From: Gammaproteobacteria bacterium | GTDB taxonomy: Bacteria > Pseudomonadota > Gammaproteobacteria > Steroidobacterales > JABDKV01 | Length of the DNA: 21,314 bases | Assembly (NCBI GenBank): GCA_029862285.1 | Contig: JAOTXR010000001.1 | Coordinates: 1 to 21,314 of the forward strand | Direction of reading: 5' to 3' | Shown: positions 1,338 through 16,054 of the stretch, piece after piece | Layout of the letters: each line of letters starts with the position of its first letter | Numbering within the stretch: position 1 is the stretch's first letter | Notes under the pieces: model-generated | The model's database searches: none | Told to the model about the DNA's origin: nothing | What the model saw: only the letters and a program-made list of their open reading frames with translations | Program-made: the position numbers and the translations under genes

Positions 1338-2895
1338 CCGTCGGAAATTTCTTCGTCGTACCGCCGCGGTTGTGGTAACCGGGCTGGCATCACCACTGAT
1401 TTCCTGCACGGCGCGCAGCATACCCACGGCGCGCGGCATTACCACGGGCCGGTTTTACGCGTATAGCCGCAATGCGGTGGCTCGCCCGGCCGGGGCCGTA
1501 GATGAGGAGGCGGCAATCCGGTCGGCGTTTGGCGATGTGCAACAGCTGAGCGCTTTGCTGCAGCCGGGGGACACAGTGGTTTTGCCTGACGATCATTACC
1601 CACTGGTAGAGCCGGTCCGCATCGTTGACGGTGTCGAGTATCGTGCGGCAACCGGGAGTTCGACCCGGCCGTTGCTGGATGCCCGCGGCCGCCTCGATTT
1701 CTGCGTATCGGGGGTTGGGACCCGTGACAGCAGCATCGAGGGGCTGCACTGTATCAATGCGCGAAAAAACGGTATCGATATCAAGGCGGACCCTAAGACC
1801 GGCCGCATGCCCGCCAATGTCAGCGTGCGCGCGTGCGAATGCTCATCCAACGGCCGCGAGGCAACACCGTCGCGTCTGTGGCATGAGGACGGTAACGGCA
1901 TTTCCATACATTGCGGTCGGCGCTACGGCACCCGGCTGGAAGCCACCACCTCCGGTATTGTCGTGGAGGACTGTGAAGCACATGACAACCTGCACGCGGG
2001 CATTCTTATAGATCTGCCCGGCGTCGGGCATCGAATCAGCCGCTGTAAGGCCGGTGGCAATGGGCGTGGGGCCGGGACGAATTCCTGGGCGATTCTGGTG
2101 CGGCCGTCGGGTGGTGCCATGCTGAAAGGCTGGACCCCGTCCCGGCATGCGGGGGTATGGAAAGCGTCGGCGCCGCGCTACGTACACCAGGTTCCGGTGC
2201 GAATTGTTTGTTCCAGGCACCGTAGCAGCAATCGGGGGCGCTGGAAGAACATCGCCTGGGATCTCACCAGGACACGCGGGGACCAGCGACGGCCCGGTCG
2301 CGGTGAATTCGGTTTTGCTCAAAGCGGACCCAGGTATCATCCGGAGCTTTTTGTAAATCTCGGACCGGTCAAACAATTTCGTCTGGTTATTTGCTGGATT
2401 GGCGATTGTCACGAGCCACTAATCGAAGATTGCACAGCCTGGGATCAGGGTGGCGTTGACGGGGTCGGGATCGGTTTTGATCAAAACACCATCGACGGCG
2501 TGATTCGCGGCTGTACAAGTCATGCCAACCGGGTCGGTTTCAGTCTGCATATCAATCGCGGTGGCACTATGAGTGACAACGTCGCCTTTCGCAATCGGGC
2601 CTATGGTTTTGACGCGGACCGCAACCTGGGGATCCTGAACGTGACCGGAAACACGGCCTACGAAAATGCTACCTCGGATTTTTATTTCGCGTTGTTTGAG
2701 GAAAACGGCACACGACTGGACTTGACCGGCAACCGTGCGTACTCGGGCACGGGTTACCTGGGTGCTGCCTACAAGGCGCCCATCTCGGCCCGCGCGCGTA
2801 CGCGCCAATCCAATCTTTACTGCGGAGAAGGCAGAAGCAGCAGCGGTTTGCCGGCATTCCCGCTCGAATCGGGTTCTTCCGGCTGCGAGCGCTAG
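1321..2895 (+). CDS. Tat-exported lipoprotein with right-handed parallel beta-helix (lyase/epimerase-like)
   Basis: The protein has 524 residues. The N-terminus carries a twin-arginine signal (DRRKFLR, residues 6-12), a hydrophobic stretch and a lipobox L-I-S-C with Cys29, so it should cross the membrane folded and become lipid-anchored. After the segment LLQPGDTVVLPDDHYPL, reminiscent of the start of PL6/chondroitinase-B-type helices, come repeated beta-helix turns such as GIVVEDCEAHDNLHAGILI and LIEDCTAWDQGGVDGVGIG. Such folds are typical of polysaccharide lyases, C5-epimerases and some binding proteins; no catalytic pair can be assigned with certainty. The ATG at 1321 has GGGAG at 1306-1310 and overlaps the sulfotransferase by 17 bases, so translation is probably coupled. 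An in-frame TTG at 1279 would bury the Tat signal. An Arg-rich stretch around residues 290-340 looks unlike the rest. A role in trimming or modifying the exported polysaccharide is inferred. Confidence 0.8.
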   Translation: MVSSTDRRKFLRRTAAVVVTGLASPLISCTARSIPTARGITTGRFYAYSRNAVARPAGAVDEEAAIRSAFGDVQQLSALLQPGDTVVLPDDHYPLVEPVRIVDGVEYRAATGSSTRPLLDARGRLDFCVSGVGTRDSSIEGLHCINARKNGIDIKADPKTGRMPANVSVRACECSSNGREATPSRLWHEDGNGISIHCGRRYGTRLEATTSGIVVEDCEAHDNLHAGILIDLPGVGHRISRCKAGGNGRGAGTNSWAILVRPSGGAMLKGWTPSRHAGVWKASAPRYVHQVPVRIVCSRHRSSNRGRWKNIAWDLTRTRGDQRRPGRGEFGFAQSGPRYHPELFVNLGPVKQFRLVICWIGDCHEPLIEDCTAWDQGGVDGVGIGFDQNTIDGVIRGCTSHANRVGFSLHINRGGTMSDNVAFRNRAYGFDADRNLGILNVTGNTAYENATSDFYFALFEENGTRLDLTGNRAYSGTGYLGAAYKAPISARARTRQSNLYCGEGRSSSGLPAFPLESGSSGCER

Positions 2896-3129
2896 AACTC
2901 CTGCCCGGGATCGAACATAACGCTGTACGGACGGTATAAATCCCGGAATCCTTTACAGTGCCCGTGTTGCCGGACTGAATTTTACGGTTGACTGCTTTAT
3001 AATCAGGCAGTTGAAAAAATGGCTCGGAAATTGCTTCAATTTCCAGGAGCTTCAAGATCAGTTAACTGCAAAAACTGACCTGAAAGTTGCTTCAATTTCG
3101 CGATAACACCAAAACCGGGACCAGCGAGC
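2896..3129 (+). promoter_or_regulatory. Intergenic leader with candidate promoter before the lectin-like gene pair
   Basis: This 234-base gap is the largest in the plus-strand arm and holds no convincing gene. A perfect TATAAT at 2998-3003 could be a -10 box, but the -35 region at 17 bp spacing (CTGAAT, 2975-2980) is poor and TTGACT at 2988-2993 is too close. Downstream a 13-mer is repeated 56 bases apart. A 19-codon ORF (3019-3078, starting MARKLLQF) spans the first repeat, but nothing supports its translation. The gap suggests that the genes from 3130 onward can be transcribed separately from the sulfotransferase/beta-helix genes. Confidence 0.4.
3027..3099 (+). repeat. Repeated TTGCTTCAATTTC element, first copy a perfect hairpin
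   Basis: The 13-mer TTGCTTCAATTTC occurs at 3031-3043 and 3087-3099. The first copy sits in a perfect inverted repeat, GAAATTG-CTT-CAATTTC (3027-3043). The second has one extra G in the left arm (GAAAGTTG, 3082-3089). Between them is the palindrome CAGTTAACTG (3059-3068). Two copies ahead of one start codon suggest paired operator sites or leader structure; the function is unknown. Confidence 0.6.
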
Positions 3130-4050
3130 ATGGGCAAGCGACAATTTTCCGCGCGACGGCGGCGTCTGCTGCAGTCTGGCGTAGCAACGTTGGCTTCGGC
3201 GCCAGTTGTCGGGCTAACGGATGGGGGCATCGTGCCGTGCCCGCCGCAGAGTGCCCAGGTCCCGGTCTGTATTCGCTCGCCGTGGGTTTATTATCCGCTT
3301 CGCAACGCGACCATAAACGAGCAAGGCGAATCATCCGAGACCGGTAATGAAGGTTTCCCGGGGCTTGTGCCGGCGACTCAGGATTCCGGCCAATGGCTCG
3401 ACAACTTCGATTGGTGGACCGGTAACGGCGCTGGCCGTGCCCTGACCCGTTCGTGGGATTCCGACCCCGCCAGGATCGGTTCTGTCATGCTGCCCGGACG
3501 CTTCGCGTGCCTGATTGGCGTACAGCTGGCAAAAACGCAAGCGACCGGAGTTAGTGAAAGTCTGCTCCTGATCGGACGCTTGCTGTCTGGTGGTTCCGGT
3601 CGCGGGCTGCATTTGAAACTCAATTCTGCCGCTAAACCACAAGTTACGCTGTGGGACGACGACGGCAACACGATATCGCTGGTTGGCAGGGACGTCGTTA
3701 ACGTCACCAATGACGGCCAATGCACCTTGTTCGTCTATATTGACCATCGTGCCGACGGTTCGCGCACCCTGAGCATGCACCAGTTCGAAACCGGCACCGA
3801 CGTTCAGAGCAGCACGGTGCAAAGGACTCACACGCTTGGCGCGATTACCGGTGCCATGTCGCCGGACAACGAGATCATTGTCGGGGCGCGTCGCCAGGCC
3901 GGCGGCAGCCTGGACCAGTTTTATCTCGGTAGCCTGCGGGGCGTCATGATCCTGAATTTTGGCACGACACCATCGGCGAATATCAGCGGCATCATGGAAG
4001 ACTTGTCGGCAACGGACATGGAACCCGACAGTTCGATGCAGGGCGTATAG
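3130..4050 (+). CDS. Tat-signal protein with LamG/concanavalin-like appearance, family not recognised (paralogue A)
   Basis: This 306-residue protein begins with a twin-arginine-like signal (ARRRRLLQSGVATLASAPVVG, residues 8-28, quoted here as ARRRRLLQSG followed by a hydrophobic run), so export by Tat is likely; there is no lipobox. I do not recognise the family. The body is beta-rich, with CIRSPWVYYPL (47-57), VTLWDDDGN (172-180), LFVYIDHRADG (200-210) and LGSLRGVMILNFG (266-278). The order of an amphipathic strand, a W-D-D turn, LFVYID and a closing LRG..ILNFG strand resembles LamG/concanavalin A-like jelly rolls, so carbohydrate binding is a reasonable guess. The next gene encodes a clear homologue over nearly the full length and begins 2 bases after this stop. 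There is no sharp Shine-Dalgarno motif at the ATG. GTG/TTG alternatives would lose the Tat motif. Confidence 0.75.
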   Translation: MGKRQFSARRRRLLQSGVATLASAPVVGLTDGGIVPCPPQSAQVPVCIRSPWVYYPLRNATINEQGESSETGNEGFPGLVPATQDSGQWLDNFDWWTGNGAGRALTRSWDSDPARIGSVMLPGRFACLIGVQLAKTQATGVSESLLLIGRLLSGGSGRGLHLKLNSAAKPQVTLWDDDGNTISLVGRDVVNVTNDGQCTLFVYIDHRADGSRTLSMHQFETGTDVQSSTVQRTHTLGAITGAMSPDNEIIVGARRQAGGSLDQFYLGSLRGVMILNFGTTPSANISGIMEDLSATDMEPDSSMQGV

Positions 4051-4052
4051 CG

Positions 4053-4958
4053 ATGGGATCCGGGCCATTACAGGTAGACCAGCTGCGCCGGCTTTGTATC
4101 AAGCACCCGGTGACCTCATTACTGTTCGGTGCCAATGCCGAAACGCCACTCGCTGCCTGCGTTCGATCGCCCTGGGCCTATTACCATCTCAGCCGCGCAT
4201 TGGCGGCGGGCGGAAATCCGGCTTCAGATTACGGTAACGAGGCCCTGCCCAGCCTGCGCTCACTGACCATCGATCCCATGCAGTGGGATTGGGGCAGTTG
4301 GTCAGGCGACGGTTCGCAGCGTGGATTGGAAGTGCCTTGGACCAGCGATCCGGTGGGGCTGGATGCGGTAGCCAGCACCGGATTCGGGGCCTTGTTGATC
4401 GGTGTTGCAATTTTCCATCCGCTTTCCGTCTCTTCAACGGAAACGATTATCAGCATCGGAAGCCGTCGCGAGTCGGTTGCCGGAATCGAAAACAAGCGGG
4501 TCGAACTTAAACTCAACAAAAGCGATCGCGCCAACCTGACAGTCTGGGATGATCTTGGTATTCAGGCTGCAGCTACCATCAACCAGCCAGGCGTCAGTGC
4601 ATCAGGTCCGGATGCAGGTCCCGTTGCGCTGTTCGTGTTCATCGACAACCGCCCGGGTGGCCCGCAAACGGCATCAATTCATCAGTACGAGCTCGGTACT
4701 GCCAATCGCGTTTCCAAAGTCCAGAGTATCGCCGCGCTCGGCAGTATCACCGGTGGCGCCACTGTGGATCCCGATAAAGTGCTCAGTGTCGGTTTCAGCC
4801 CGGACATCGGCAGCGCGACTTTCAGGCATTACAACGGTGCATTGCGTGGCCTGCACGTGATGAATTTCGGCGACAAACCGCCATCCGACATAGATTTTGT
4901 CATGGATCAGTTGTCGAGGACCGCCATGATGTCCGGTCGCTTCATGGTGGGTCTGTGA
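4053..4958 (+). CDS. LamG/concanavalin-like protein of unrecognised family (paralogue B, no export signal)
   Basis: The 301-residue protein is a diverged tandem copy of the preceding gene. Shared blocks in the same order are CVRSPWAYYHL (36-46), GNEALPSL (61-68), LTVWDDLG (162-169), LFVFIDNRPGG (193-203), SIHQYELGT (208-216) and YNGALRGLHVMNFG (260-273). The N-terminal 30 residues are unrelated to the Tat leader of its partner and show no hydrophobic signal segment. It may therefore stay in the cytoplasm, leave with a partner (hitch-hiking through Tat is known for other complexes), or have a different true start. Its stop overlaps the start of the phosphoesterase by one base (TGATG). The three genes thus look like one translation unit. 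Function unknown; glycan binding is only inferred from fold-like features. Confidence 0.72.
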   Translation: MGSGPLQVDQLRRLCIKHPVTSLLFGANAETPLAACVRSPWAYYHLSRALAAGGNPASDYGNEALPSLRSLTIDPMQWDWGSWSGDGSQRGLEVPWTSDPVGLDAVASTGFGALLIGVAIFHPLSVSSTETIISIGSRRESVAGIENKRVELKLNKSDRANLTVWDDLGIQAAATINQPGVSASGPDAGPVALFVFIDNRPGGPQTASIHQYELGTANRVSKVQSIAALGSITGGATVDPDKVLSVGFSPDIGSATFRHYNGALRGLHVMNFGDKPPSDIDFVMDQLSRTAMMSGRFMVGL

Positions 4959-6346
4959 TGCGTATTCGTCTGGGTGATGTCACGACTACCACCGCGCGCC
5001 TGACGGCCGTTGTGATCTCAGGTGAGAGTATTCAGGCTGAAATCGAGCCAGTGGCGGCTATTAGCATCGCAGCGCCGGACCAACGCGTTGCAAGCCCGTA
5101 TCTTGCGACCCAGCTCATTAGCTTCAGCGGCCTGCAACCTTTCACGCGCTACAACTACTCAATTACGCAGGGAAGCCAAACGCTGACCGGCTCGTTCGTG
5201 ACGCTACCGGACGATCAGGTAACGCCGTTCTCAATGATTATTGCAACCTGCGACGGACCAGCCCGATATAATCCAATGGATACCTTCCAGACCATGCGCC
5301 GGCTCGTGCAGGAAGCGGATCCACCGGTGCTGTACATGGTAACCGTCGATGACGTCCACTATGTGGACAGTTATGAGGTCAACGATCCCGAGACGGGTTT
5401 CGTGACCGGCGGTCGCCCGGAGGACACCAACAACGGTGAGGATTACGCTATTTGCTGGGCGGCCAATTACGGGTTGTTCAATAGCGACGGCAAGTGGCAA
5501 ATGGTCGACAGGCAGTGGATCTATCGCAATCTGCCGCATGGCTGTAGCGGTGGAGACCATATGGTTACGGGCAACCACTGTCGTGGCCCGGTTGGACACC
5601 ATACTTATCACGGCTGCGATCGAGCTCCAGGCGGTCTGCAGGAAACCGCATTTGCTGAGTGGCAGGCTTTTTACGGCCAGCAGAACCCGGACCCGCTACG
5701 CCCCGATGAACTTTATTGGGCCAAGGACATAGGCCCGGTGCGGATGGCGTGTACCGATATCCAGAAGCATTGCATCGCATTCGACCCGGACGTGAATGGC
5801 ACGGGTCAATCTTCCGATACCCCCATGTTGGGTCAAACCCAGATTGACGATGTGATGGACCATCTGGATACAGACGCACAGGCTTTCAAGATCCTTTTGC
5901 TCGAGACCGGCTTCTCGAAAGTGGGACAACCCTGGCTCGAATATCATTCAACGGAAGCGAGTGACTGGAAGACCGATCTTGATTCGCGTCCGAATCTCAA
6001 CGGTACACAGGGTAATTTTATTGGCATCTACGGTGACCATCACAGTATGCACAGTGTTTCCTTCGATACGTTCTGGGGGTTCTGTGCCGGAACACTGGGT
6101 GATTCGTTCAGCGTCGGCCACAATCTGCACAATGCGACCTGGGGCTGGGGTGGCGCCCTGCAATACAAATGGACCAGTTTCCGCCGTAACGGCGATGTCC
6201 TCGTGGGCGGTTTTTTGCATGTAATCGTGCACGCGGACAAGAGTCCCAGGACCGTTGAAATCCGTTTTATTCACGGTGGCAGCGGCGAGGTGATGTTTAG
6301 CCGCACCATAGAATACGGCGCCGTGGCCAACCAGTTTTCCCAATAA
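4958..6346 (+). CDS. Divergent PhoD-like metallophosphoesterase with N-terminal Fn3-like domain
   Basis: The product has 462 residues. Residues 1-85 look like the beta-sandwich that precedes PhoD and purple-acid-phosphatase catalytic domains, ending in FSGLQPFTRYNYSI and a TGSFVTLP strand. The catalytic part has FSMIIATCDG (91-100), TVDDVHYVD (129-137, where PhoD usually has GD.hYvD), VTGNHC (203-208, at the GNH-D/E block) and GIYGDHHS (356-363, the GDxH block). This pattern supports a calcineurin-like metal centre but with changed residues, including Gly to Asp before the second metal Asp and Cys after GNH. PhoD enzymes hydrolyse phosphodiesters or phosphomonoesters and are normally Tat-exported, yet no signal peptide is visible here. 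The ATG at 4958 is preferred to the GTG at 4955, since it overlaps the preceding stop by one base and follows GGTGGG. The lectin-like neighbours suggest a shared complex (inference). Confidence 0.78.
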   Translation: MRIRLGDVTTTTARLTAVVISGESIQAEIEPVAAISIAAPDQRVASPYLATQLISFSGLQPFTRYNYSITQGSQTLTGSFVTLPDDQVTPFSMIIATCDGPARYNPMDTFQTMRRLVQEADPPVLYMVTVDDVHYVDSYEVNDPETGFVTGGRPEDTNNGEDYAICWAANYGLFNSDGKWQMVDRQWIYRNLPHGCSGGDHMVTGNHCRGPVGHHTYHGCDRAPGGLQETAFAEWQAFYGQQNPDPLRPDELYWAKDIGPVRMACTDIQKHCIAFDPDVNGTGQSSDTPMLGQTQIDDVMDHLDTDAQAFKILLLETGFSKVGQPWLEYHSTEASDWKTDLDSRPNLNGTQGNFIGIYGDHHSMHSVSFDTFWGFCAGTLGDSFSVGHNLHNATWGWGGALQYKWTSFRRNGDVLVGGFLHVIVHADKSPRTVEIRFIHGGSGEVMFSRTIEYGAVANQFSQ

Positions 6347-6363
6347 CGAAGGCTGCATGCCAA

Positions 6364-9300
6364 GTGCCAGGGTCAAAAAGAAAACACGGGAATACTCTGA
6401 ACGTCATCCGGATGTCTGTTCTTTGCGCCTTGCTCGGAACTGCACGGGCCGACTGGTTTGAGGACGCTACGATAGCGGCGGGGGTCAATGACCAGGACAA
6501 CTCATTCGGCGTGTCGTGGGGAGATCTAAACGGCGACGGTTACCCCGACGTCTATCTCAGTAACCACTGGCATACGCCCACGCTGTACCTGAATCAACAG
6601 GACGGCACGTTCGTCGATGTGCAGGACCAGCACGATGTGGCCATGGGTCACATCGATGTACATGCCTGCACCTGGGGCGATTACAACAACGACGGTGACC
6701 AGGACCTGATCAAGGCGGTGGGTGGTTTTACGGCCGGCGGCGGCATACCGGATACGCCTTATTTCGACAATATCGGGGGGACGCTGCAGTTGGGCGACGG
6801 GCAGGCGACCGGACTCAATTATGCCTACAGTGGCCGGGCGCCGGTTTGGCTGGACGAAAATTCCGATGGCCTGCTGGACATGCTGATGGTATCGCGCCCG
6901 CGTGTCGCCGGTTTTTATACAGCCATCCTGCGGCAGGTGTCACCGGCTTTGTTCGAAAACGTGACTGCGGCGTCCGGTCTCGATGGGATAAAAGCCGCGT
7001 CAGCCTATCTGCTCCTGGGACCCAACTCACCACAACGACCGGATATTCTGCTTAACCGCGGCGACTATTTTCAATGGAACGGCCAACAGTGGCAGAACAA
7101 CGCCGCCCCCGTATTTACTTCGATGGGCGCCATGTCCGATGCAGCCCATGCCGATGTAAACGGTGACGGATTGCTGGACCTGTACGTCGTGCGTCAGGGC
7201 ACCCGTTCGGAGGTCGTCAGTGACGACCATAGTGTGAAACTCGCCTACACCAGCGTGAGCGGCGTTCCAGGTGTTATCGACTTCATGGGTGGCGGGGTTC
7301 TCAACATTATCCGCAGTCTCAATATTCCCGTCAGTGCCATCCGGACCGGCGCTTCACAGCTAATCACCCCGGCCGATCCGGATGATTCGATTACGTTGGA
7401 CCCGCTGGATCCTCAAGTCCAGGGAGAACCGTCTTTTGTGCTCGAGTCCGCACTACGGGTATTCGTCTGGTACACGCCCGCTGATGACTATTGGCATTTT
7501 CGCATCGGCAAAACAGGCGGCGGTGCGGTGGTGGAGATGGAAGTCCACGCACAGGACGTGATTCAGGATGTCACGATCCAGAACATCGCAGTCTCCGATA
7601 GCCCCCAGCTGAACCGGTTGTTCATCAATAACGGTGATGGTACCTATTCCCAGGACAATACCAGTAGCCTGCGCCTCGGCCCGACCGGGGCGGCCATCAT
7701 GGCGGACCTGGATAACGACATGGACGTGGATGCCTACGTCGTCAACCGTAACGCTGTGAGTAACGTCCCGAATCAGCTATTCGAAAATCAGGGCGACGGT
7801 ACTTTTATCGAGGTTACTGCTGCCGGCGGTGCAACCGGTCCTTCCATCGGCAACGGAGATTCCGTTGCATTTGCCGACTATGATCTCGACGGCTTCCTCG
7901 ATTTGTTCATTGTCAACGGCCGCAGCGACCTGATTATGGAAGCGTACCCGGGGCCACACAGCCTTTATCGAAACCTGGGCAATCAGAACAACTGGCTGCA
8001 GATCGACCTGGAGGGCACCACTTCGAACCGCGAGGCCATAGGTGCTGTTGTGGAAGTCCTGGCCGGGGGCAGCACCCAGGTGCGCCTGCAAGACGGCGGC
8101 ACGCATGGATTCGCACAAAACCAGTCACGGTTGCACTTTGGTCTTGCCGCTAACGATCGGGTGGACCGGATCACCGTGCACTGGCCGAGTGGCGTTGTGC
8201 AGCAAGTGGACGACATGCCGGTCAATCAGCTGATCCGCATCATTGAATCAGAACCCGAGCTGATTCCCGGAGTGCCGGCTTCGCTTGCCGGAGGGGCCGA
8301 CGGTGTTTATCTCTGGAAAGATACTTTTGACGGGCCGTATCATTTACGTGCAATTCACACGGACCAGGCCAGCGCTACGACAATAAATCTACTGACGGAC
8401 CGGCCATTACTTGATGCACAGTTGCTGCCACCGGCCGGAAAGACGGTCTGGCAATCGTACGATTTTGGTTTCGCACTTTCTACGAATGAAAGCGACGCAA
8501 CGGGTGGCGTGGATTTTCAATTGCGGTCCGATGCTGATGGGCTGTACTCGGTGCAGTCCGGAACGACGATCAACCCGCGGCTGGTGACCCTGGGTTCCGG
8601 GGAGGCCCGGCCTTCGCCGGCCGGCTGGTTGATTGACACGGCCGATTTGCCGCCGACACCGGTCTTCAAGACTGGCGCGAATCGGGGCTTGTTCCTTGGT
8701 CGCAATTCCGCTTCGAACGGGCTCGAGTTCCGAATGAACGGCGACGGAACGCAGCATGAAGGAACTCTTGAACTCTATGCCGCGGAGCCGTGGTTGGCCG
8801 ATTTCCAGGACGTGGAGCTGGAAGCCGGGGACGAGTGGTATGCCGGCATCAATTACGCCAGTGCCACCGGCGCGGTAACGAGTAATTGGGATGGCGTGGA
8901 CATTGCATTGCGTGGCGACACGGACATTGGATTCCTGTACACACAGGACAGGCTGTTTCAGCCGGAAGCTGTCAATAACCGCGACGCCGGCGGTGAGCTG
9001 GGCGAACCCAATGCTTACAAACTGCCAAAACCAAGTCCGCGGGGAGAGCCACAATATGATCCAGCGGTCGAAGGGCATGTATTCCTGTGGCAGGACGACA
9101 CCGACCGCTGGCGACTGCGTGCAACGGCCGGTGCCGATCGTTTGCGTTATGCCGGACGTATCATTTCGGATCAACCGCCGATTTTGGTAACGCCTGTAGA
9201 CTTTGAGCACAACGACTCGGCGGATCTGCGCAACCCGCTTGTGATCCGCTTTGATTTGAGCGGAAACAGCGATTTGTCCGATGGACTGGATATCGAGTAT

Positions 9301-9948
9301 CCGCCCGGTACCACTATTCGCGTTCATATCGACAAGGCCAAAGGCGACTTGCTGGACGTGTTGCGCATTGGTCCGAAGCGGTGGCCGGTCAGCCGTTTGC
9401 CGGTCATATTGCCACCCGGGGACGCCATCCCGCCTGCCGCGATGGAACGTGCAACCGGTCAGGTTTCAAGTTTCGCCGCGGGTGACGATGGAGAACTGCA
9501 GCACGGCATATCCATGCCCGTGCCCCGTTTCGATCTGCGGCCCGATGGAACGGTCTACGACATGCTTACCGGACTGATCTGGCTGGCAAACGCCGAGTGT
9601 TTCGGGCAGCTGGACTGGCCCGCTGCGGTCGCGGCCGCGGAAGCGTTGAATGACACGGAGTGCGGGCTTGGCGATGGCTCACTGCCGGGTGACTGGCGGC
9701 TGCCGAATATCAAAGAGCAACTCAGCCTGATCGATTTCGGTGAGACGCAACCGGCCCTGCCGGTCGGCCATCCATTCACCCAGGTTCAGAATGCGTTCTA
9801 CTGGTCGTCTACGACCACCGACGACAATATCGCGCGTGCCTGGGGAACGGTGGTGCCGGGCGGAAATGCGGAACGCCGGAGGAAAGACGCGTCTCAGCAT
9901 CCGGTGAACGGAACGCCTCACTATGTGTGGCCGGTAAAAGGACCCTGA
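6364..9948 (+). CDS. Large secreted protein: FG-GAP/VCBS repeats, ASPIC/UnbV domain, W-rich repeats, C-terminal DUF1566
   Basis: The 1194-residue protein starts with a basic n-region (KRKH), a hydrophobic core and a likely Sec cleavage site ARA|DW near residue 29. The GTG at 6364 (AAGG at 6349-6352) gives the full signal; ATG 6412 would leave only a 13-residue, uncharged leader. FG-GAP/VCBS calcium-loop motifs appear as DLNGDGYPDVYL (54-65), DYNNDGDQDL (106-115), DVNGDGLLDLYV (264-275), DLDNDMDVDAYV (448-459) and DYDLDGFLDLFIV (505-517). An ASPIC/UnbV domain as in CRTAC1-like proteins covers about 545-628. Three copies of a V[FY][LV]W...D..[WYH]..R motif follow a spacer or the UnbV domain (about 366-381, 647-662, 904-920). 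Residues 1030-1194 form a DUF1566 domain, the module also encoded alone by the next gene. It is probably a calcium-binding cell-surface or extracellular adhesin-like protein; no catalytic function is apparent. Confidence 0.85.
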   Translation: MPGSKRKHGNTLNVIRMSVLCALLGTARADWFEDATIAAGVNDQDNSFGVSWGDLNGDGYPDVYLSNHWHTPTLYLNQQDGTFVDVQDQHDVAMGHIDVHACTWGDYNNDGDQDLIKAVGGFTAGGGIPDTPYFDNIGGTLQLGDGQATGLNYAYSGRAPVWLDENSDGLLDMLMVSRPRVAGFYTAILRQVSPALFENVTAASGLDGIKAASAYLLLGPNSPQRPDILLNRGDYFQWNGQQWQNNAAPVFTSMGAMSDAAHADVNGDGLLDLYVVRQGTRSEVVSDDHSVKLAYTSVSGVPGVIDFMGGGVLNIIRSLNIPVSAIRTGASQLITPADPDDSITLDPLDPQVQGEPSFVLESALRVFVWYTPADDYWHFRIGKTGGGAVVEMEVHAQDVIQDVTIQNIAVSDSPQLNRLFINNGDGTYSQDNTSSLRLGPTGAAIMADLDNDMDVDAYVVNRNAVSNVPNQLFENQGDGTFIEVTAAGGATGPSIGNGDSVAFADYDLDGFLDLFIVNGRSDLIMEAYPGPHSLYRNLGNQNNWLQIDLEGTTSNREAIGAVVEVLAGGSTQVRLQDGGTHGFAQNQSRLHFGLAANDRVDRITVHWPSGVVQQVDDMPVNQLIRIIESEPELIPGVPASLAGGADGVYLWKDTFDGPYHLRAIHTDQASATTINLLTDRPLLDAQLLPPAGKTVWQSYDFGFALSTNESDATGGVDFQLRSDADGLYSVQSGTTINPRLVTLGSGEARPSPAGWLIDTADLPPTPVFKTGANRGLFLGRNSASNGLEFRMNGDGTQHEGTLELYAAEPWLADFQDVELEAGDEWYAGINYASATGAVTSNWDGVDIALRGDTDIGFLYTQDRLFQPEAVNNRDAGGELGEPNAYKLPKPSPRGEPQYDPAVEGHVFLWQDDTDRWRLRATAGADRLRYAGRIISDQPPILVTPVDFEHNDSADLRNPLVIRFDLSGNSDLSDGLDIEYPPGTTIRVHIDKAKGDLLDVLRIGPKRWPVSRLPVILPPGDAIPPAAMERATGQVSSFAAGDDGELQHGISMPVPRFDLRPDGTVYDMLTGLIWLANAECFGQLDWPAAVAAAEALNDTECGLGDGSLPGDWRLPNIKEQLSLIDFGETQPALPVGHPFTQVQNAFYWSSTTTDDNIARAWGTVVPGGNAERRRKDASQHPVNGTPHYVWPVKGP

Positions 9949-9952
9949 TGGA

Positions 9953-10537
9953 ATGGTCAAACACATGAACTGGTTACATGGAAAATCACGGATCATTCTG
10001 CTGTGCGGGCTGCTGGCATACAGCTCCTTGCTTGTCGCCGGTCCTCCGGCGCCGGTGGCCGCAACCGGACAGACGACCGAATACGCATCGGGCGATGATG
10101 GCGCGGAGCAGGCCGGTGTGACCTGGCCAAAACCACGTTTCGTCGACAACCAGGATGGCAGTGTCAGCGATCGGTTGACGGGTCTTGTATGGCTCAAGGA
10201 CGCCAATTGTTTTGGCCGCGTTAGCTGGGAGGATAGCCTGCAGCTGCCACAGTTAGTCGTGAACGGCGCTTGTGGCCTGACCGACGCGTCGCTGGCCGGT
10301 GACTGGCGACTGCCCAATGTGCTGGAGTTGTTCGGTCTGGTGGATCTTGGCGAACACCAGCCGGCGCTGGTTGCCGGGCATCCTTTTCTCAACGTGCAGC
10401 TGGATTTCTACTGGTCAGGCACGACTCTCGACAATGTGAATTCGCCGGCCCGGCCTGTCAGCATGAGTTTTGGCAACATCGATCAAAAGGACAAGGCAGA
10501 GCTGTATTACGTGTGGCCCGTGCGTGACGCAAGGTAG
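9953..10537 (+). CDS. Small secreted DUF1566 (Lcl C-terminal-like) protein
   Basis: This 194-residue protein has a Sec-type signal (basic HGKSR, then a hydrophobic ILLCGLLAYSSLLVAG) that probably ends near residue 30. The mature part is a single DUF1566 domain. It carries LTGLVWLKDANCFG (75-88), GDWRLPNVLELFGLVD (around 116-131), FYWSGTT and YYVWPVRD. These align throughout with the last 165 residues of the preceding protein, including the lead-in ATGQ...GDDG and the paired cysteines, which could form a disulfide. It begins 4 bases after the upstream stop, and an in-frame ATG at 9965 is an alternative start. DUF1566 occurs in secreted and fimbrial or surface proteins of Proteobacteria, with no settled biochemical role. 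A partner or decoy relation to the large protein is possible but unproven. Confidence 0.8.
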   Translation: MVKHMNWLHGKSRIILLCGLLAYSSLLVAGPPAPVAATGQTTEYASGDDGAEQAGVTWPKPRFVDNQDGSVSDRLTGLVWLKDANCFGRVSWEDSLQLPQLVVNGACGLTDASLAGDWRLPNVLELFGLVDLGEHQPALVAGHPFLNVQLDFYWSGTTLDNVNSPARPVSMSFGNIDQKDKAELYYVWPVRDAR

Positions 10538-10609: not shown

Positions 10610-12163
10610 ATGACCCATCCACCTGTCTTGATTTCTGTATGTTGCCTGATGTTGGCGGTTGGATGTGCCAGTGTCGCAGCGCCGGTCGCCGTTAATAAAC
10701 CACGAGAAATGATTGTGCTGGAGCCGGGAATCATCGGCTTCAATTCACCGATGGGCGCCCTCGGAGAGCCCAGGGGAAGCTATGCCTCCGGCGACATGGA
10801 TCGGGCGCTGTCGCTACTCCCGGTGCGGGCGCTGCGCTTTCCCGGTGGCACGGTCGCGAACTATTTTGACTGGGAGACCGGGTCGCTCATGGAAGAGGCG
10901 CTGGAACGGTCCGGCAGGGAAAAGCTCGTCGATAATCAGAGAAAGGCGAGAGAAAGAAACAAGGGTATCCTGCCGCCGGTTGATTTCGGTTCTTTCCATA
11001 CTGTTACCGAAGAGCACGGGATCAGGCGATTCGTGGTCCTCAATCTGCTCACCAGCCCCATCGAAAGCACGATTGTCACTATAGACCGGATAAAGAAAGA
11101 GTATCCCGGCCAGTACTATTGGGAACTTGGCAACGAGCTCTCCCAGGGTTCGTATCGTGGACGAGCGTTTGCGACCGATGCCTTCAATGAATCTGTCTAC
11201 GTGCGGCTGGCAAACCGTATTGCGGCGCATATCGAAGCACATTATCCGGAAGATCGGGTCGGTCTCGTCGTCGGTCAGCTAATCGAAGGAAGAACACCGG
11301 CGGTTCGGAAATTTCGGAATCTGCAGGAGCAACGTGCCGAGTGGGACCGGGCTGTCGCCGGTGTCGATCATGCCGATGCCGTGATAATCCATCCTTATGT
11401 CGAGCTCGATAAACGCTTGCCGATGTCGCAGGCGCGGAGCCTGATGAAAGAGTTGCCCGGTATGACAAGAAAAGCCCAGGTGCAATGGCGCTGGATGTTT
11501 GCCTGCGCCCAGGAACTTCCCGGTCTTTACGTGCAGCGACTCGAAAACCGCTTCCCGGACCGCAAGATCTGGATTACGGAGGCCGGGCTTGCCAATGACA
11601 GCGATGCCAGGAATGCACTTGCTCAGGCACACGACATGTCAAGGGTGTTGTTCGATGTCGCCTATTTCATTTCCTGGTTGAGAGTTTACCCGGCCTGGGA
11701 GACTTTTCTGTATCACGGGCTTTTTCCCGGCAAGAGAAACATGGCTGCATTCGCGGCGGACATGGGTTGGAATGCCAATACGGTGGCCTATGTGTTTCTG
11801 GAACGGTTGCTGGAGCAGGGGCGGGCGATTGCCGTCATGGATATTTCTGACTCGCCTGAATACCATGGAACCGGCTTTTACGCCGACAGGCGAGTGCGAG
11901 CCCTGACCGGGGCCTACGTGAGCACCGACGACGGCGACAGGATTCTACTTGTCAACACCGGTCCCGAACCGGTGGAAGTACGAATCCCTTTTGCCGGGAT
12001 GAGCACGGTCACGGCGGGTGGGGCACACGATGCCGAAGTTGATGTCGCGGATTTTGATGACGCGGAGCTGTTCCGGCGCGTTTCGGGCATAAGCGGTGCG
12101 GTAGCGGTACCGGCATATTCGGTGGTGCTTATTTCCGAATCCGTGCGCCGCGATAATGGCTGA
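10610..12163 (+). CDS. Lipoprotein resembling clan GH-A glycosidases (GH51/GH39/GH79-like TIM barrel)
   Basis: The 517-residue protein has a lipoprotein signal ending LMLAVGC (Cys19), so it should be anchored in the outer or inner membrane. ALRFPGGTVANYFDWETG (74-91) resembles the beta-strand and loop found near the start of arabinofuranosidase and heparanase-type barrels. WELGNELS (171-178) gives the Asn-Glu acid/base pair (N175, E176) and WITEAGL (321-327) the candidate nucleophile E324, both at clan GH-A spacing. The C-terminal 100 residues look like the beta-sandwich that closes such barrels. The exact family and sugar cannot be told; hydrolysis or editing of the exported polysaccharide is the likely job. 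The ATG at 10610 is preceded by GGAG at 10585-10588. The 72-base gap upstream contains a TTTACA (10570-10575) but no good -10 box. Confidence 0.78.
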   Translation: MTHPPVLISVCCLMLAVGCASVAAPVAVNKPREMIVLEPGIIGFNSPMGALGEPRGSYASGDMDRALSLLPVRALRFPGGTVANYFDWETGSLMEEALERSGREKLVDNQRKARERNKGILPPVDFGSFHTVTEEHGIRRFVVLNLLTSPIESTIVTIDRIKKEYPGQYYWELGNELSQGSYRGRAFATDAFNESVYVRLANRIAAHIEAHYPEDRVGLVVGQLIEGRTPAVRKFRNLQEQRAEWDRAVAGVDHADAVIIHPYVELDKRLPMSQARSLMKELPGMTRKAQVQWRWMFACAQELPGLYVQRLENRFPDRKIWITEAGLANDSDARNALAQAHDMSRVLFDVAYFISWLRVYPAWETFLYHGLFPGKRNMAAFAADMGWNANTVAYVFLERLLEQGRAIAVMDISDSPEYHGTGFYADRRVRALTGAYVSTDDGDRILLVNTGPEPVEVRIPFAGMSTVTAGGAHDAEVDVADFDDAELFRRVSGISGAVAVPAYSVVLISESVRRDNG

Positions 12164-12192: not shown

Positions 12193-13170
12193 ATGAATAA
12201 TGGTCGAAAACGAATTCTGCTTTTCATAGCGTCTGTCGCAGACTGGTTGATGGTGCCGATCACGGTCCTGGCATCTTTCTGGCTCAGGACTATCAGAAAG
12301 CTCGGAGTGCACCACCTGTCCGCCAGCAGAAGGGTTTTCAACTGGACCGGTGTCTTCCCGATTCGCGATCATTATTACGAGCCGCTTTTCGACACATGGA
12401 GATTGCGGAAATCGCTGCGCGAGGATCGCCCGCTGCCCGGGATTGACATGAACGTGGCCGAGCAGTTATCGATACTGAAAAGCCTGGACTATAACGATGA
12501 ATTGCTCGAATTCCCGCTCAAAAAGACGGACAAGCTCGAGTATTACTATCATAACGGTCCATACGGTTCCGGTGATTCAGAATACCTATACAGCATCATT
12601 CGCAGGTTCAAGCCGGCCAGATTAGTGGAGATCGGTAGCGGCAACTCTACATTGATGGCGCGCAATGCGATAAACCGCAATATGCAGGAGCAATCGGGGT
12701 ACCGGTGTGAGCATATTTGTATCGAACCGTACCAGCATGAGTGGCTTGGCCAGCTGGGTATTTCGGTAATCAGGGAGGTGGTTGAAGACACCGACCGCGG
12801 CCTGTTCGAAGCCCTGGGCGAAAACGACATCCTGTTCATCGATTCGTCTCACATTATCCGCCCCCAGGGAGACGTCGTTGTCGAATACCTGGAAATTCTC
12901 CCGCTGCTAAATAAAGGCGTGCTGGTTCATGTACACGACATATTCACGCCCAAGGATTATCTGGATGAGTGGGTAATCGACCGCGTCAGGCTGTGGAATG
13001 AGCAATACCTGTTGGAAGCCTTCCTGTCCTTCAACAGTCAGTTTCGGGTAATCGGCGCGTTGAATTTCCTCAAACATCACCATGCCGCGGAACTTTCCGC
13101 CAAATGCCCCGTGCTTGCGAATGAGATCGATAAACGCGAGCCCGGCTCCTTCTGGTTCGTCCGTAACTGA
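12193..13170 (+). CDS. Membrane-anchored class I SAM-dependent methyltransferase
   Basis: The product has 325 residues. A hydrophobic segment (about 8-31, after the basic GRKR) is probably a membrane anchor with the rest in the cytosol. The Rossmann methyltransferase signature begins with LVEIGSGNST (144-153, motif I), then ICIEPY (175-180, the acidic residue that binds the SAM ribose), DILFIDSSH (212-220) and GVLVHVHDIFTPKDY (242-256), as in the Methyltransf_24 group found in sugar and polysaccharide clusters. AGGA at 12181-12184 lies 8 bases ahead of the ATG, and the gene follows the glycosidase-like gene by 29 bases, which suggests one transcript. It may O-methylate a sugar of the glycan or of its lipid carrier (inference). 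It is the last plus-strand gene before the convergent minus-strand operon. Confidence 0.82.
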   Translation: MNNGRKRILLFIASVADWLMVPITVLASFWLRTIRKLGVHHLSASRRVFNWTGVFPIRDHYYEPLFDTWRLRKSLREDRPLPGIDMNVAEQLSILKSLDYNDELLEFPLKKTDKLEYYYHNGPYGSGDSEYLYSIIRRFKPARLVEIGSGNSTLMARNAINRNMQEQSGYRCEHICIEPYQHEWLGQLGISVIREVVEDTDRGLFEALGENDILFIDSSHIIRPQGDVVVEYLEILPLLNKGVLVHVHDIFTPKDYLDEWVIDRVRLWNEQYLLEAFLSFNSQFRVIGALNFLKHHHAAELSAKCPVLANEIDKREPGSFWFVRN

Positions 13171-13197: not shown

Positions 13198-13920
13198 TCA
13201 ATCTGGCTTGCACAGAGAGTCGTACAACTCCCGGGCCTGGTTCAGACGTTTCGCGCAGGCCGGCGAGAGAAGTTGCGCGCGGATGCTGGCGGACTTCTCG
13301 GAGCGTTGTCCGGACGGCCGCGCCACGCGGTCTTCGTTGATCTCTCCGATTTCCCGGCCAGATTCCAGGCTTTCGAGTCGGGCAAAGGCGCGTGCCACGT
13401 TCTCTTCGTTGTGGTCAAAAACCTGGAATTGCGTTCCCCATTTGTTATTCAGTCGTTCGATTACGCGGCCAAAGTCATCGGTAATATCCTCGAACCGGGC
13501 AATCAGAAAACTGTCACGGTACCTGCGAATGGTCCGGTGAAAATGGATGTAGTCCCATAGAGCCACCCTGATACCGAGTGCAGGCTCACGTACGATCAGC
13601 GAGGCGACCGCAGAAACCGGTTCACGCAGCAGCACAACGATCGGAATGCCCCGCTGCACTCCGCGTATGACCTGGGCCGGCACATGCAGATGATGCGCAA
13701 TCTTCACTTCACGCTCCTGCGCCTGTTCGAATGCGACAACGGAAAAGGAGTTGGCCGAGCGGGGGTAGCCTTCGATGACCAGTTCTGTTTTTCCGCTGGC
13801 GGCAAGCTCCGGCTTGCTGGTTATGAGTCTGCGCAAGAAGAAATACGGGAAGGGGCGGCTCCCGAGAACGCGCTGGATGACGAACAGGGATACTTTGAAA
13901 AACCGGGTGATGCGGTTCAT
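13198..13920 (-). CDS. Divergent sulfotransferase-like protein
   Basis: This 240-residue protein carries VIEGYPRSANSFSV (48-61), a P-loop-like 5'-phosphosulfate-binding motif, and VVLLREPVSAVASLIVRE (95-112), corresponding to the 3'-phosphate-binding Arg/Ser segment. RFEDITDDF is seen where sulfotransferases have the conserved F/Y-E-D/N turn. These point to a PAPS-dependent sulfotransferase of a short, divergent group; it is only distantly like the sulfotransferase two genes upstream. The first 30 residues are basic and aromatic and may bind the membrane. Its ATG overlaps the stop of the glycosyltransferase by 4 bases (ATGA), and it is the last gene of the minus-strand operon. A P-loop kinase is a less likely alternative. 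Confidence 0.75.
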   Translation of the reverse strand: MNRITRFFKVSLFVIQRVLGSRPFPYFFLRRLITSKPELAASGKTELVIEGYPRSANSFSVVAFEQAQEREVKIAHHLHVPAQVIRGVQRGIPIVVLLREPVSAVASLIVREPALGIRVALWDYIHFHRTIRRYRDSFLIARFEDITDDFGRVIERLNNKWGTQFQVFDHNEENVARAFARLESLESGREIGEINEDRVARPSGQRSEKSASIRAQLLSPACAKRLNQARELYDSLCKPD

Positions 13921-15071
13921 GGGTCCGGTGTCATGACGGAATGATAGATCTCCAGCAAGGTCTGGTAATTCGAGTCAGAGGTGTACTTGCTCTCGTATTC
14001 CCGGCGTGCCCGTTTTCCCATTTCCAGTAGCTCGTCCGGATGACTTTTCGCCCATGCGATTTTTTCCCGCAGATCCGGAGCAGACCCGGGATCGAATAAC
14101 AAGCCGGTGACGCCGTCGGTGACCAGTTCCTGCAACGCGCCTATCCTGCTGGCAATTACCGGCAAGCCGTTTGCGAATGCCTCGATGACTATCAGGCCGA
14201 AGGTTTCGTACCAGATGCTGGGAACCAGCAAATAAGACGCCCGGCGCATGGCCGCATGGACTTCCGATGGAGTCTTCCAGCCATGCACAGAGAAGCATCC
14301 GTGTTTCGACAACATGTTTTCCAGCGGGCCGGTGCCGATGATATCGATATTGGCTCCAGGAACAGACACTGCGGCATCGGCCAGCTGCTGCAGGCCTTTT
14401 TCAGGGTACAGTCTGCCAACAAACAGGCCGTTGGCGCGTGCACCATCGGACTGGTAGTCGATATCTACGAAGTTCGGTTTTATATGAATCCGTTCGGCAG
14501 GGAGCCCCCCCTCCACGAACTTTTGGCGCGAGAATTCGGTCAGTGCAATGTAGGCTGCTATCCGTGAGCGATAGGTACCGAGCATGCGATGAACCGTAAG
14601 CATGGTACTGAGCACAGCTGTCTGGGCTGCAGAGTCTCGATAACAACGGTACCGAACGGCCTGCCACGGGATATGATTCACGCATTTTTCGCACACCTTG
14701 TCAGCGCGCAGCAGCATCGCCTGAGGGCAGAGCAACCTGAAGTTGTGCAGCGTCTGGACGACGGGGGTCCCCATACTGGTTGCTTTCCAGTAAATCGATG
14801 GGGAAATTAATGGAAATGTGTTGTGGACGTGTACCAGGTCGGGGCGGAACGTTTGCGCAATTTGCTCGAATTTCTTGGCGGAATCCCGCGACCAGATGGT
14901 TTGAGTCGCGAGTCGTGCCCGGGACATATCTCCGATGCTGTCATTGTGTTGCTCGTACAGGCGTACGTCATGCCCCCTGCGGCTCAGCATGTCGACTTCG
15001 GCATCGACCACCTGGTCTTCGCCCCCGCGCTGTTGGTAGCGGGAATGTGCGAACAAGATCTTCAGGCTCAT
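13917..15071 (-). CDS. GT4-family glycosyltransferase
   Basis: The 384-residue protein has a GT-B fold: KILFAHSRYQQRGGEDQVV (4-22, the glycine-rich acceptor-side loop), VHVHNTFPLISP (80-91), GLFVGRLYPEKGL (215-227, donor-side) and ETFGLIVIE (289-297), the E-x7-E motif of retaining GT4 enzymes. A Cys cluster (CEKC...C, 127-143) is common in this subgroup. It transfers a sugar from a nucleotide-sugar donor to a growing lipid-linked oligosaccharide on the cytoplasmic face. The frame is open up to 15338, but the extra 89 residues overlap the sulfotransferase and are arginine/proline-rich non-homologous sequence. The ATG at 15071 fits because it overlaps the upstream stop codon by one base (TAATG). 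It is the only obvious glycosyltransferase in the window, so others must lie elsewhere. Confidence 0.92.
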   Translation of the reverse strand: MSLKILFAHSRYQQRGGEDQVVDAEVDMLSRRGHDVRLYEQHNDSIGDMSRARLATQTIWSRDSAKKFEQIAQTFRPDLVHVHNTFPLISPSIYWKATSMGTPVVQTLHNFRLLCPQAMLLRADKVCEKCVNHIPWQAVRYRCYRDSAAQTAVLSTMLTVHRMLGTYRSRIAAYIALTEFSRQKFVEGGLPAERIHIKPNFVDIDYQSDGARANGLFVGRLYPEKGLQQLADAAVSVPGANIDIIGTGPLENMLSKHGCFSVHGWKTPSEVHAAMRRASYLLVPSIWYETFGLIVIEAFANGLPVIASRIGALQELVTDGVTGLLFDPGSAPDLREKIAWAKSHPDELLEMGKRARREYESKYTSDSNYQTLLEIYHSVMTPDP

Positions 15072-16054
15072 TAGAAGTAGCGACGTCTGACGCGCTTTTG
15101 CTTGCGGGTACGGACCAGGTAACGCGCGAACTTCAACTGCAAATTGCGTTCCAGGTAGCCGTAACCCATAAGGGCAAGGTCGGAGCCTGTGCCCGCCCAG
15201 CGTGTCGGAATCGATTCCAGTTCGGTTTCGAGGTCTGCGTGGCTGTACCTCATGACTTCCAGGCGCTCTGGACCGATCCATTCGAGGTAACGCCTGGCCC
15301 AGCGCTGTCTCGCCATTCCGGCAAAAGTTTCTTTCCATTTTTCCAGCGGAGCCTGGCTTAGCGAGGAGTATTCCCTGGTGCCGGATGGATCGCCCATTCG
15401 GCCTGCAAGCTGGATCGAGGCGAATTGCTCGCTAAGCTGTTCTGCAACCGGCAAGTCCAGGTAAGCGAGCAGTTCATCGATGGTTTCGTCAGGGGCTTTG
15501 AGCAGGGATTCGTATTGAATCGCTTTTATTCTGTCGGGGTAATCCCGTGCGGCACATGTCATGTTGTCGAGCCCATCGTAGAGATCGACAGCCGACTTGA
15601 AAAGGTTCCACCGGCCTTTGCCGAAAGTCTCAATTATGGATGCCGCGCATGCCAGTGGGTTGCGCCACAGGAAAATAATGCGGCTTTGTGGGAAGGCGCG
15701 CAGCAGTTCGTCCAGGACCAGGTTATTGCGGGGCGTTTTTTCAAGATAGTATCGACGCTCCGGGGGGCTGACGTCGGCAAACAACCGGACTGCCAACTCG
15801 CCGACGCGCCGATAGTATGCGTCCTCTCCGCCTTCCAGATGACTGCAAAATTCACTGATGGCCGCTGCGGCTGTCGTGTGTGCGTATTCGCTGAACACGC
15901 TGCCTTGGCGCATGGCGTAGAGCTGTGGCAGCAGCAGCCAGGACTCCGGGCTGGTATGAACGTCCGGGTGCGCCGCGAGGATACGCTGCAGAAGCGTCGA
16001 ACCTGATCGCGGCAGTGAGATCAGAAAGACGATGTTTTGATCCGTCCAGGTCAC
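15071..16054 (-). CDS. Sulfotransferase (Sulfotransfer_3-like)
   Basis: The 327-residue protein begins almost at once with VFLISLPRSGSTLLQRIL (9-26), the canonical 5'-phosphosulfate-binding loop, followed by HPDVHTSPESWLL. LEKTPRNN (104-111) and RIIFLWRNPLACAASI (125-140), with Arg131 and Ser139, form the 3'-phosphate-binding part. Length and layout match bacterial PAPS sulfotransferases of the Sulfotransfer_3 group. The C-terminal tail is strongly basic (RTRKQKRVRRR), perhaps for contact with membrane or acidic glycan. Its ATG overlaps the flippase stop by 4 bases and its stop overlaps the glycosyltransferase start by 1. It therefore acts within the coupled operon, most likely sulfating the lipid-linked oligosaccharide before it is flipped. 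Confidence 0.92.
   Translation of the reverse strand: MTWTDQNIVFLISLPRSGSTLLQRILAAHPDVHTSPESWLLLPQLYAMRQGSVFSEYAHTTAAAAISEFCSHLEGGEDAYYRRVGELAVRLFADVSPPERRYYLEKTPRNNLVLDELLRAFPQSRIIFLWRNPLACAASIIETFGKGRWNLFKSAVDLYDGLDNMTCAARDYPDRIKAIQYESLLKAPDETIDELLAYLDLPVAEQLSEQFASIQLAGRMGDPSGTREYSSLSQAPLEKWKETFAGMARQRWARRYLEWIGPERLEVMRYSHADLETELESIPTRWAGTGSDLALMGYGYLERNLQLKFARYLVRTRKQKRVRRRYF

Follow-up and report, generated by a model that had tools for sequence, protein, structure and literature searches.

Background

According to the available excerpts of PMC4223295, export in the PhoD family proceeds by the twin-arginine translocation (Tat) pathway, and the authors of that work speculate that iron is inserted before export. 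Seven metal ligands of Bacillus subtilis PhoD (C180, D207, D265, D266, N271, N272, and D436) were mutated there. For PaoABC of Escherichia coli, the excerpts of PMC4273604 describe two signal-less partners exported on one Tat signal. Among phages, ORF22 of Thermobifida phage P1312 combines a metallophosphatase with a carbohydrate-binding module (CBM_4_9), and its authors predict a signal peptide and cell-wall anchoring (excerpts of PMC4569894); the alkaline phosphatase D of phage YongM appears in a table of proteins identified by mass spectrometry (excerpts of PMC8875764). In this paper, a stretch of 21,314 nucleotides from a gammaproteobacterial assembly (contig JAOTXR010000001.1, hereafter the window) is analyzed. 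Its positions 3130 to 6346 hold three adjacent genes on one strand, encoding two paralogous proteins, LecA and LecB, and a phosphoesterase.

Main features of the three genes

The trio is tentatively explained, with confidence somewhat short of even, as a PhoD variant that is guided by lectins, exported through Tat, and encoded in a surface-glycan locus. All three open reading frames (ORFs) proposed by an initial annotation were recovered, and their third-position guanine plus cytosine content is of the coding type (0.68 in lecA, 0.63 in lecB, and 0.64 in the phosphoesterase gene, against 0.68 in the miaB gene of the window). The tight packing described there was also found. A gap of 2 bases separates lecA from lecB, and at the junction CTG TGATG the phosphoesterase gene overlaps lecB by 1 base if it starts at ATG 4958, or by 4 bases if it starts at GTG 4955. 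LecA and LecB are tandem full-length paralogues, as had been proposed, with 35% identity over 278 amino acids (E 2e-48) in an alignment running through to the last residues of both.

Profile comparison assigns the phosphoesterase to the PhoD superfamily in the wide sense. By hhalign it reached a score of 65.3 (Prob 94.0, E 1.4e-7) against a set of ten PhoD-like proteins from nine phages, with a maximum of 29.6 in 60 shuffles and of 28.0 among five other proteins of the window. Against six divergent bacterial PhoD-like ORFs from the same taxonomic order, the score was 52.2 (Prob 87.8) and 30 shuffles stayed at or below 24.2. The corrected bacterial sets comprised 14 classical, 3 middle, and 6 divergent rows; L017 yielded no ORF, and L029 and L030 were left out. 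The label of a divergent PhoD-like enzyme is thus upheld by scores well above the shuffles. Family models agree at lower strength: Pfam PhoD (PF09423) matched residues 108-369 with 16.2 bits (E 0.0059), below its curated cut-off of 27 bits, and PHROG 13624, a phage 'hydrolase', matched at E 0.0036. The PhoD family search of the source genome at E 0.001 returned no match. The best bacterial phmmer match outside the window's own locus was L108 (E 9.9e-5, in a small ORF set), and the part before the core aligns with PhoD_N in gp123 of phage Tomas. The single-sequence structure model had a predicted local distance difference test (pLDDT) score of 33.9, and its best fold match an E value of 0.34.

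In a ligand alignment of 16 rows (the L034 row was wrong and ignored), five of the seven PhoD metal ligands are kept, namely C99, D133, D201, N207, and D361, together with the iron tyrosine, Y136, and with H363. Motifs were used to place the B. subtilis ligands; numbering the iron tyrosine as 210 and the second histidine as 438 is our own count from these motifs. The comparison with the classical PhoD set pairs the stretch 200-207 identically. Because it keeps only five of seven ligands, the phosphoesterase is filed as a superfamily relative and not as PhoD proper.

LecA is predicted, with low confidence and from its structure model, to be a concanavalin-A-like jelly roll. Most of the 50 PDB matches listed in each of two fold searches contain what we take to be concanavalin-A-like domains, and 9 of the 50 viral matches listed are named concanavalin-A-like or LamG-like. 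No Pfam, NCBIfam, or PHROG family matched LecA or LecB above its cut-off, and Laminin_G_3 (PF13385) was not listed for either protein by Pfam at E up to 1. Another candidate relative, the C-terminal region of cyanophage alkaline phosphatase D, present in 3 phage records, was rejected: it looks alike by eye, but phmmer gave at most 3.8 bits and hhalign a Prob of 0.2, with a score of 14.8 where 30 column shuffles reached 19.2. Of two proteins scanned, one matched Laminin_G_3 in that region, and only at E 0.16.

Proposed export of the phosphoesterase

The single Tat signal claimed for the trio stands as a pattern match, in LecA alone. The LecA N-terminus reads ARRRRLLQSG, followed by a moderately hydrophobic stretch, and the twin-arginine pattern was matched in neither LecB nor the phosphoesterase. 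By eye, RRLCIK near the start of LecB could be a decayed form of the motif. For comparison, 72 ORFs matched by a profile of the phosphoesterase and its phage kin were reduced to 64 with sufficient coverage and to 62 after removal of near-copies, 51 of them bacterial, and the pattern was looked for within 200 residues before the PhoD-like domain. It was found in 37 of the 51 bacterial ORFs; 1000 shuffle rounds gave a mean of 6.3 and a maximum of 15. Since most bacterial PhoD-like ORFs thus carry the pattern and the phosphoesterase does not, Tat hitch-hiking on LecA is favoured, if unproven. The source genome holds a tatC fragment (a TatC match of 83.2 bits over model positions 1-88 of 208, in an open frame of 115 amino acids). 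With a signal-less enzyme encoded two genes behind LecA, this fragment, and the PaoABC precedent, hitch-hiking is a reasonable supposition.

According to the proposed mechanism, lecA, lecB, and the phosphoesterase gene would be translationally coupled, and LecA and LecB would be carbohydrate-binding proteins of the concanavalin-A-like type. The three proteins may assemble in the cytoplasm, where the phosphoesterase would take up iron, and the assembled trio would leave through Tat on the signal of LecA. Outside the cell, the lectins might hold the phosphoesterase on a phosphate-bearing, perhaps also sulfated, glycan, whose phosphate esters it would then cut.

Search for relatives

In the source genome, the only copies of LecA, LecB, and the phosphoesterase found were those of the window. 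A homologue of the phosphoesterase was found in none of 58 other relatives and in none of 397 other genomes of a draw from the phylum. In a draw of 369 genomes from the class, the LecA/LecB profile had no match in any of the 368 other than the source genome. Plasmids and phages gave no match to the phosphoesterase or LecA at the limits used, and none was seen in viral contigs or in a set of 84,980 species genomes, scanned with a few short exact peptide patterns that distant kin could escape. The broader profile of the phosphoesterase with its phage kin matched in 50 of the 369 class genomes, its own included; at four of these places six neighbours were inspected, four with Pfam families, none of them lectins, and two without a family. 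Neither LecA nor LecB had a match better than E 0.44 in L005-L034, E 0.22 in L065-L087 (15 PhoD neighbourhoods among them), or E 0.45 in L100-L135 outside the window's own locus. Around the two best matches to the UnbV gene, the neighbour of the trio, in a genome of the same genus, no LecA, LecB, or phosphoesterase match at E 0.1 was present within 12-16 kb.

As a separate observation, 17 PhoD candidates at first look and 6 weak matches are spread over several contigs of genome G039, where a divergent PhoD-like family may have expanded.

Weighing of the explanations

Several results weigh against a lectin-guided, Tat-exported PhoD variant. No homologue of the three proteins was found, and therefore the partnership is without comparative support, as it is without refutation. 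At the level of the enzyme, glycine occupies two ligand positions whose alanine variants abolish PhoD activity. Comparison of the phosphoesterase with 14 classical PhoDs of relatives gave no clear signal (score 25.9, shuffle maximum 22.7), and an earlier classical set, which included the wrong-strand ORFs L010 and L017, gave 27.7 against a shuffle maximum of 31.1. With regard to export, no NCBIfam model, including the TAT model TIGR01409, matched LecA at E up to 1, so that the Tat call is a pattern match only. The pattern was present in just 2 of 11 phage PhoD-like proteins; because the other 9 do without it, an absent signal is not rare in the superfamily. The term 'lectin-like' is left standing in part: the LecA model matches jelly rolls, but its mean pLDDT is 38.8, the matches are one-sided (query TM-scores of 0.11-0.37 among the 50 PDB matches listed, one of them with E below 0.001), and no family-level sequence match accompanies them. 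LecA and LecB as LamG domains were rejected, with an hhalign Prob of 0.9 against 28 of 30 LamG domains of relatives (the loci of the other 2 were truncated). In addition, no sigma-70-type promoter was found in 2600-6600, including the region ahead of lecA, and the UnbV and Lcl_C genes follow at distances close to those within the trio.

The gene run itself bears on a different explanation, somewhat unlikely but to be taken seriously, in which the genes are coupled and no complex forms. LecA alone would then be exported by Tat, LecB and the phosphoesterase may be cytoplasmic or take another route, and their adjacency would come from a longer transcript for secreted and glycan-related proteins. 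Spacing nearly as tight as that in the trio persists to the UnbV and Lcl_C genes, several neighbouring genes encode hydrophobic starts of their own, and LecB and the phosphoesterase have no recognized signal, all of which fits. However, PhoD-type enzymes are normally extracytoplasmic, as suggested by PMC4223295 in its available excerpts and by the frequency of the Tat pattern in the bacterial survey, and LecB is paralogous over its full length to LecA, which does have an export motif. Doubtful, in our view, is an obligate ternary Tat hitch-hiker: a tandem pair from an undescribed lectin family would export a signal-less, metal-site-altered PhoD-type phosphoesterase and aim it at phosphorylated or sulfated surface glycan, so that the export signal and the targeting of a PhoD would both have passed to separate partner proteins.

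The metal site raises a further alternative, rather unlikely in our estimate, that the calcium sites have been lost and that the protein is a binding or scaffold protein or has a two-metal centre like that of purple acid phosphatases. The D265 and N271 positions of PhoD are occupied by Gly200 and Gly206, and in B. subtilis PhoD the D265A and N271A variants each abolish activity (excerpts of PMC4223295); the phosphoesterase therefore has an altered metal centre or is inactive. The end branch of the phosphoesterase is also long, at 4.38 changes per column in a tree of 62 rows. Against this stand the conserved ligands listed above, with Y136 and H363, and the deviation of phage rows at the same positions (serine at D265 in 3 of 8, a gap at N271 in 8 of 8). 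This alternative is compatible with the lectin-guided reading save for the catalytic step. It is improbable that the two paralogues are not lectins but enzymes of concanavalin-A-like fold, namely glycan lyases or hydrolases. PL14, PL7, and heparin-lyase structures do occur among the LecA fold matches, but sialidase lectin domains and CBM40 rank equally high, and a pattern scan gave no PL7 or GH16 motif.

Least probable, and very unlikely, is an origin of the trio by domestication of a phage virion or tail hydrolase, with a signal-less PhoD-like enzyme and jelly-roll, fibre-like proteins. Phage proteins are the best profile match of the phosphoesterase, the LecA model also matches the tailspike of cyanophage Pan3 and a phage 'hydrolase', and the 62-row tree placed the phosphoesterase with 8 of 10 phage rows, in a 9-row clade with support of 100/95 (80/46 for its own join with four of them). 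A phage origin suggested by that tree was nevertheless rejected as unsupported: the approximately unbiased test did not reject grouping with bacteria (p 0.33), and in a tree without six rows that were long or joining, four of these from phages, the phosphoesterase stood beside bacterial rows. No phage-type Pfam family was found among the 18 ORFs of the window scanned, and no relative occurred at the limits used in phage records (only 7 records at E up to 10, with E of at least 2) or in viral contigs. In the same tree, two PhoD-like genes of Microbacterium phage A3Wally (L097:896-5200), lying nearly side by side, fall in different phage lineages.

Locus and neighbouring genes

The coordinates of the features are collected in Table 1. 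The source assembly (G000) is incomplete, with 2.5 Mb in 462 contigs and 71% completeness. The description of a closed three-gene unit does not hold, as same-strand ORFs continue beyond 6346 after 17 and then 4 bases: the next start at 6364, 9953, 10610, and 12193, and the run extends to 13170. A second Lcl_C protein begins at 9953, 4 bases after the UnbV gene; the ORF at 10610 has a lipoprotein-like start and a GH1 match below cut-off; and 12193-13170 is a methyltransferase gene. In its Lcl_C end, the UnbV protein is 48% identical to the Lcl_C domain encoded by the next gene (9430-10525); the two form a second pair of paralogous neighbours in the run. Match stretches of UnbV/ASPIC FG-GAP number 26 in G000, 33 in G001, 14 in G003, and 20 in G004, with none in G002 of the same genus.

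Table 1. Positions of the trio and associated features in the window
Feature	Position	Strand	Remarks
lecA (LecA, lectin-like paralogue 1 with twin-arginine pattern)	3130..4050	+	306 aa
Twin-arginine stretch of LecA, RRRRLLQ, residues 9-15	3154..3174	+	pattern match
lecB (LecB, lectin-like paralogue 2, no export pattern matched)	4053..4958	+	301 aa
Divergent PhoD-superfamily phosphoesterase, no signal recognized	4955..6346	+	463 aa from GTG 4955 or 462 aa from ATG 4958
Cys99, aligned with Cys180 (Fe ligand) of B. subtilis PhoD	5249..5251	+	
Asp133-x-x-Tyr136, aligned with PhoD Asp207 and Tyr of GDxxY	5351..5362	+	
GDHMVTGN (200-207), aligned with PhoD 265-272	5552..5575	+	Asp266, Asn272 kept; Asp265, Asn271 replaced by Gly
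Asp361-His-His363, aligned with PhoD Asp436 and His two further on	6035..6043	+	
UnbV/ASPIC FG-GAP protein with C-terminal Lcl_C domain, possibly same transcript	6364..9948	+	17 bases downstream of phosphoesterase
Direct repeat copy 1, lecA leader	3014..3043	+	30 nt
Direct repeat copy 2	3070..3099	+	80% identical to copy 1, 56-nt start spacing

These surroundings would fit a surface-glycan locus. Pfam identifies one clear sulfotransferase (15071-16054) and two sub-cut-off matches (88-633 and 615-1337) near the trio, and a glycosyltransferase and a polysaccharide flippase are also present; beyond these, the window holds MiaB-type, PhoH, and YbeY genes. On the opposite strand, the ORF at 13198-13920 has no Pfam match and carries EGYPRSANSF at its start, presumably resembling the loop of sulfotransferases that binds 3'-phosphoadenosine-5'-phosphosulfate; the locus may thus hold more sulfotransferases than Pfam shows. 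A defence system was considered and rejected, PADLOC having given a single match, of 11.6 bits, for the phosphoesterase.

Directly 5' of lecA, the ORF at 1279-2895 encodes a beta-helix protein whose start, RRKFLRR, is Tat-like (TIGR01409 14.1 bits, cut-off 16.7). By eye, a lipobox-like cysteine follows (RRKFLRR...LISC), and the protein would be a second one of Tat type directly upstream of lecA. Between this ORF and lecA lies a 234-base leader containing the direct repeat, a possible regulator site; exact matches to its 13-nt core, TTGCTTCAATTTC, occur nowhere else in the assembly. Terminator-like sites in 2600-6600 number 2, against 3.4 expected, and Rfam gave no match.

Comparison with known systems

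If the lectin-guided reading is true, the trio would be a PhoD that has outsourced its Tat targeting to lectin partners, and a testable case of Tat hitch-hiking outside the hydrogenase and oxidoreductase examples. It would also name a new lectin family and indicate that phosphate on bacterial surface glycans is edited enzymatically. Otherwise, what is left is a glycan locus with a run of orphan proteins of secreted type.

Like B. subtilis PhoD (2YEQ) and PF09423, the phosphoesterase has a core of the PhoD type, in which C, D-x-x-Y, D-H, N, and GD-x-H residues align; it differs in its sub-cut-off Pfam score, in two ligands changed to glycine, and in having no Tat signal of its own. The phage PhoD-like hydrolases (Tomas gp123, which is PHROG 13624; Alleb gp39; and YongM alkaline phosphatase D) are closest by profile, mostly share the missing Tat pattern, and have extra regions of about 200-250 amino acids attached. 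In contrast to the trio, they are single longer proteins among phage genes, and the extra regions tested do not match LecA or LecB by sequence. LecA shares its predicted fold with the concanavalin-A-like lectins and glucanases (CBM40, galectins, LamG), but neither LecA nor LecB matches Laminin_G_3 by sequence or any Pfam, NCBIfam, or PHROG family above cut-off.

The two ideas that the initial annotation had taken to be new have precedents. In PaoABC, a Tat signal is likewise present on one of three subunits; the proteins are unrelated, and export is experimental there (excerpts of PMC4273604) and conjectural for the LecA trio, so that a three-component hitch-hiker is not new in kind. A glycan-guided phosphatase is also a known idea, because P1312 ORF22 fuses glycan binding with a PhoD-like enzyme (excerpts of PMC4569894); both domains were re-found here, the module below its cut-off. 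There, CBM_4_9 is part of one chain, whereas LecA and LecB are separate proteins. Full-text searches gave no paper joining PhoD, a lectin domain, and LamG, and for PhoD with LamG a single listed study, on a composting metagenome. New here are the tandem arrangement of an orphan lectin-like family and the division over three genes; compared with these known systems, the trio is an unproven rarity, not a new kind of system.

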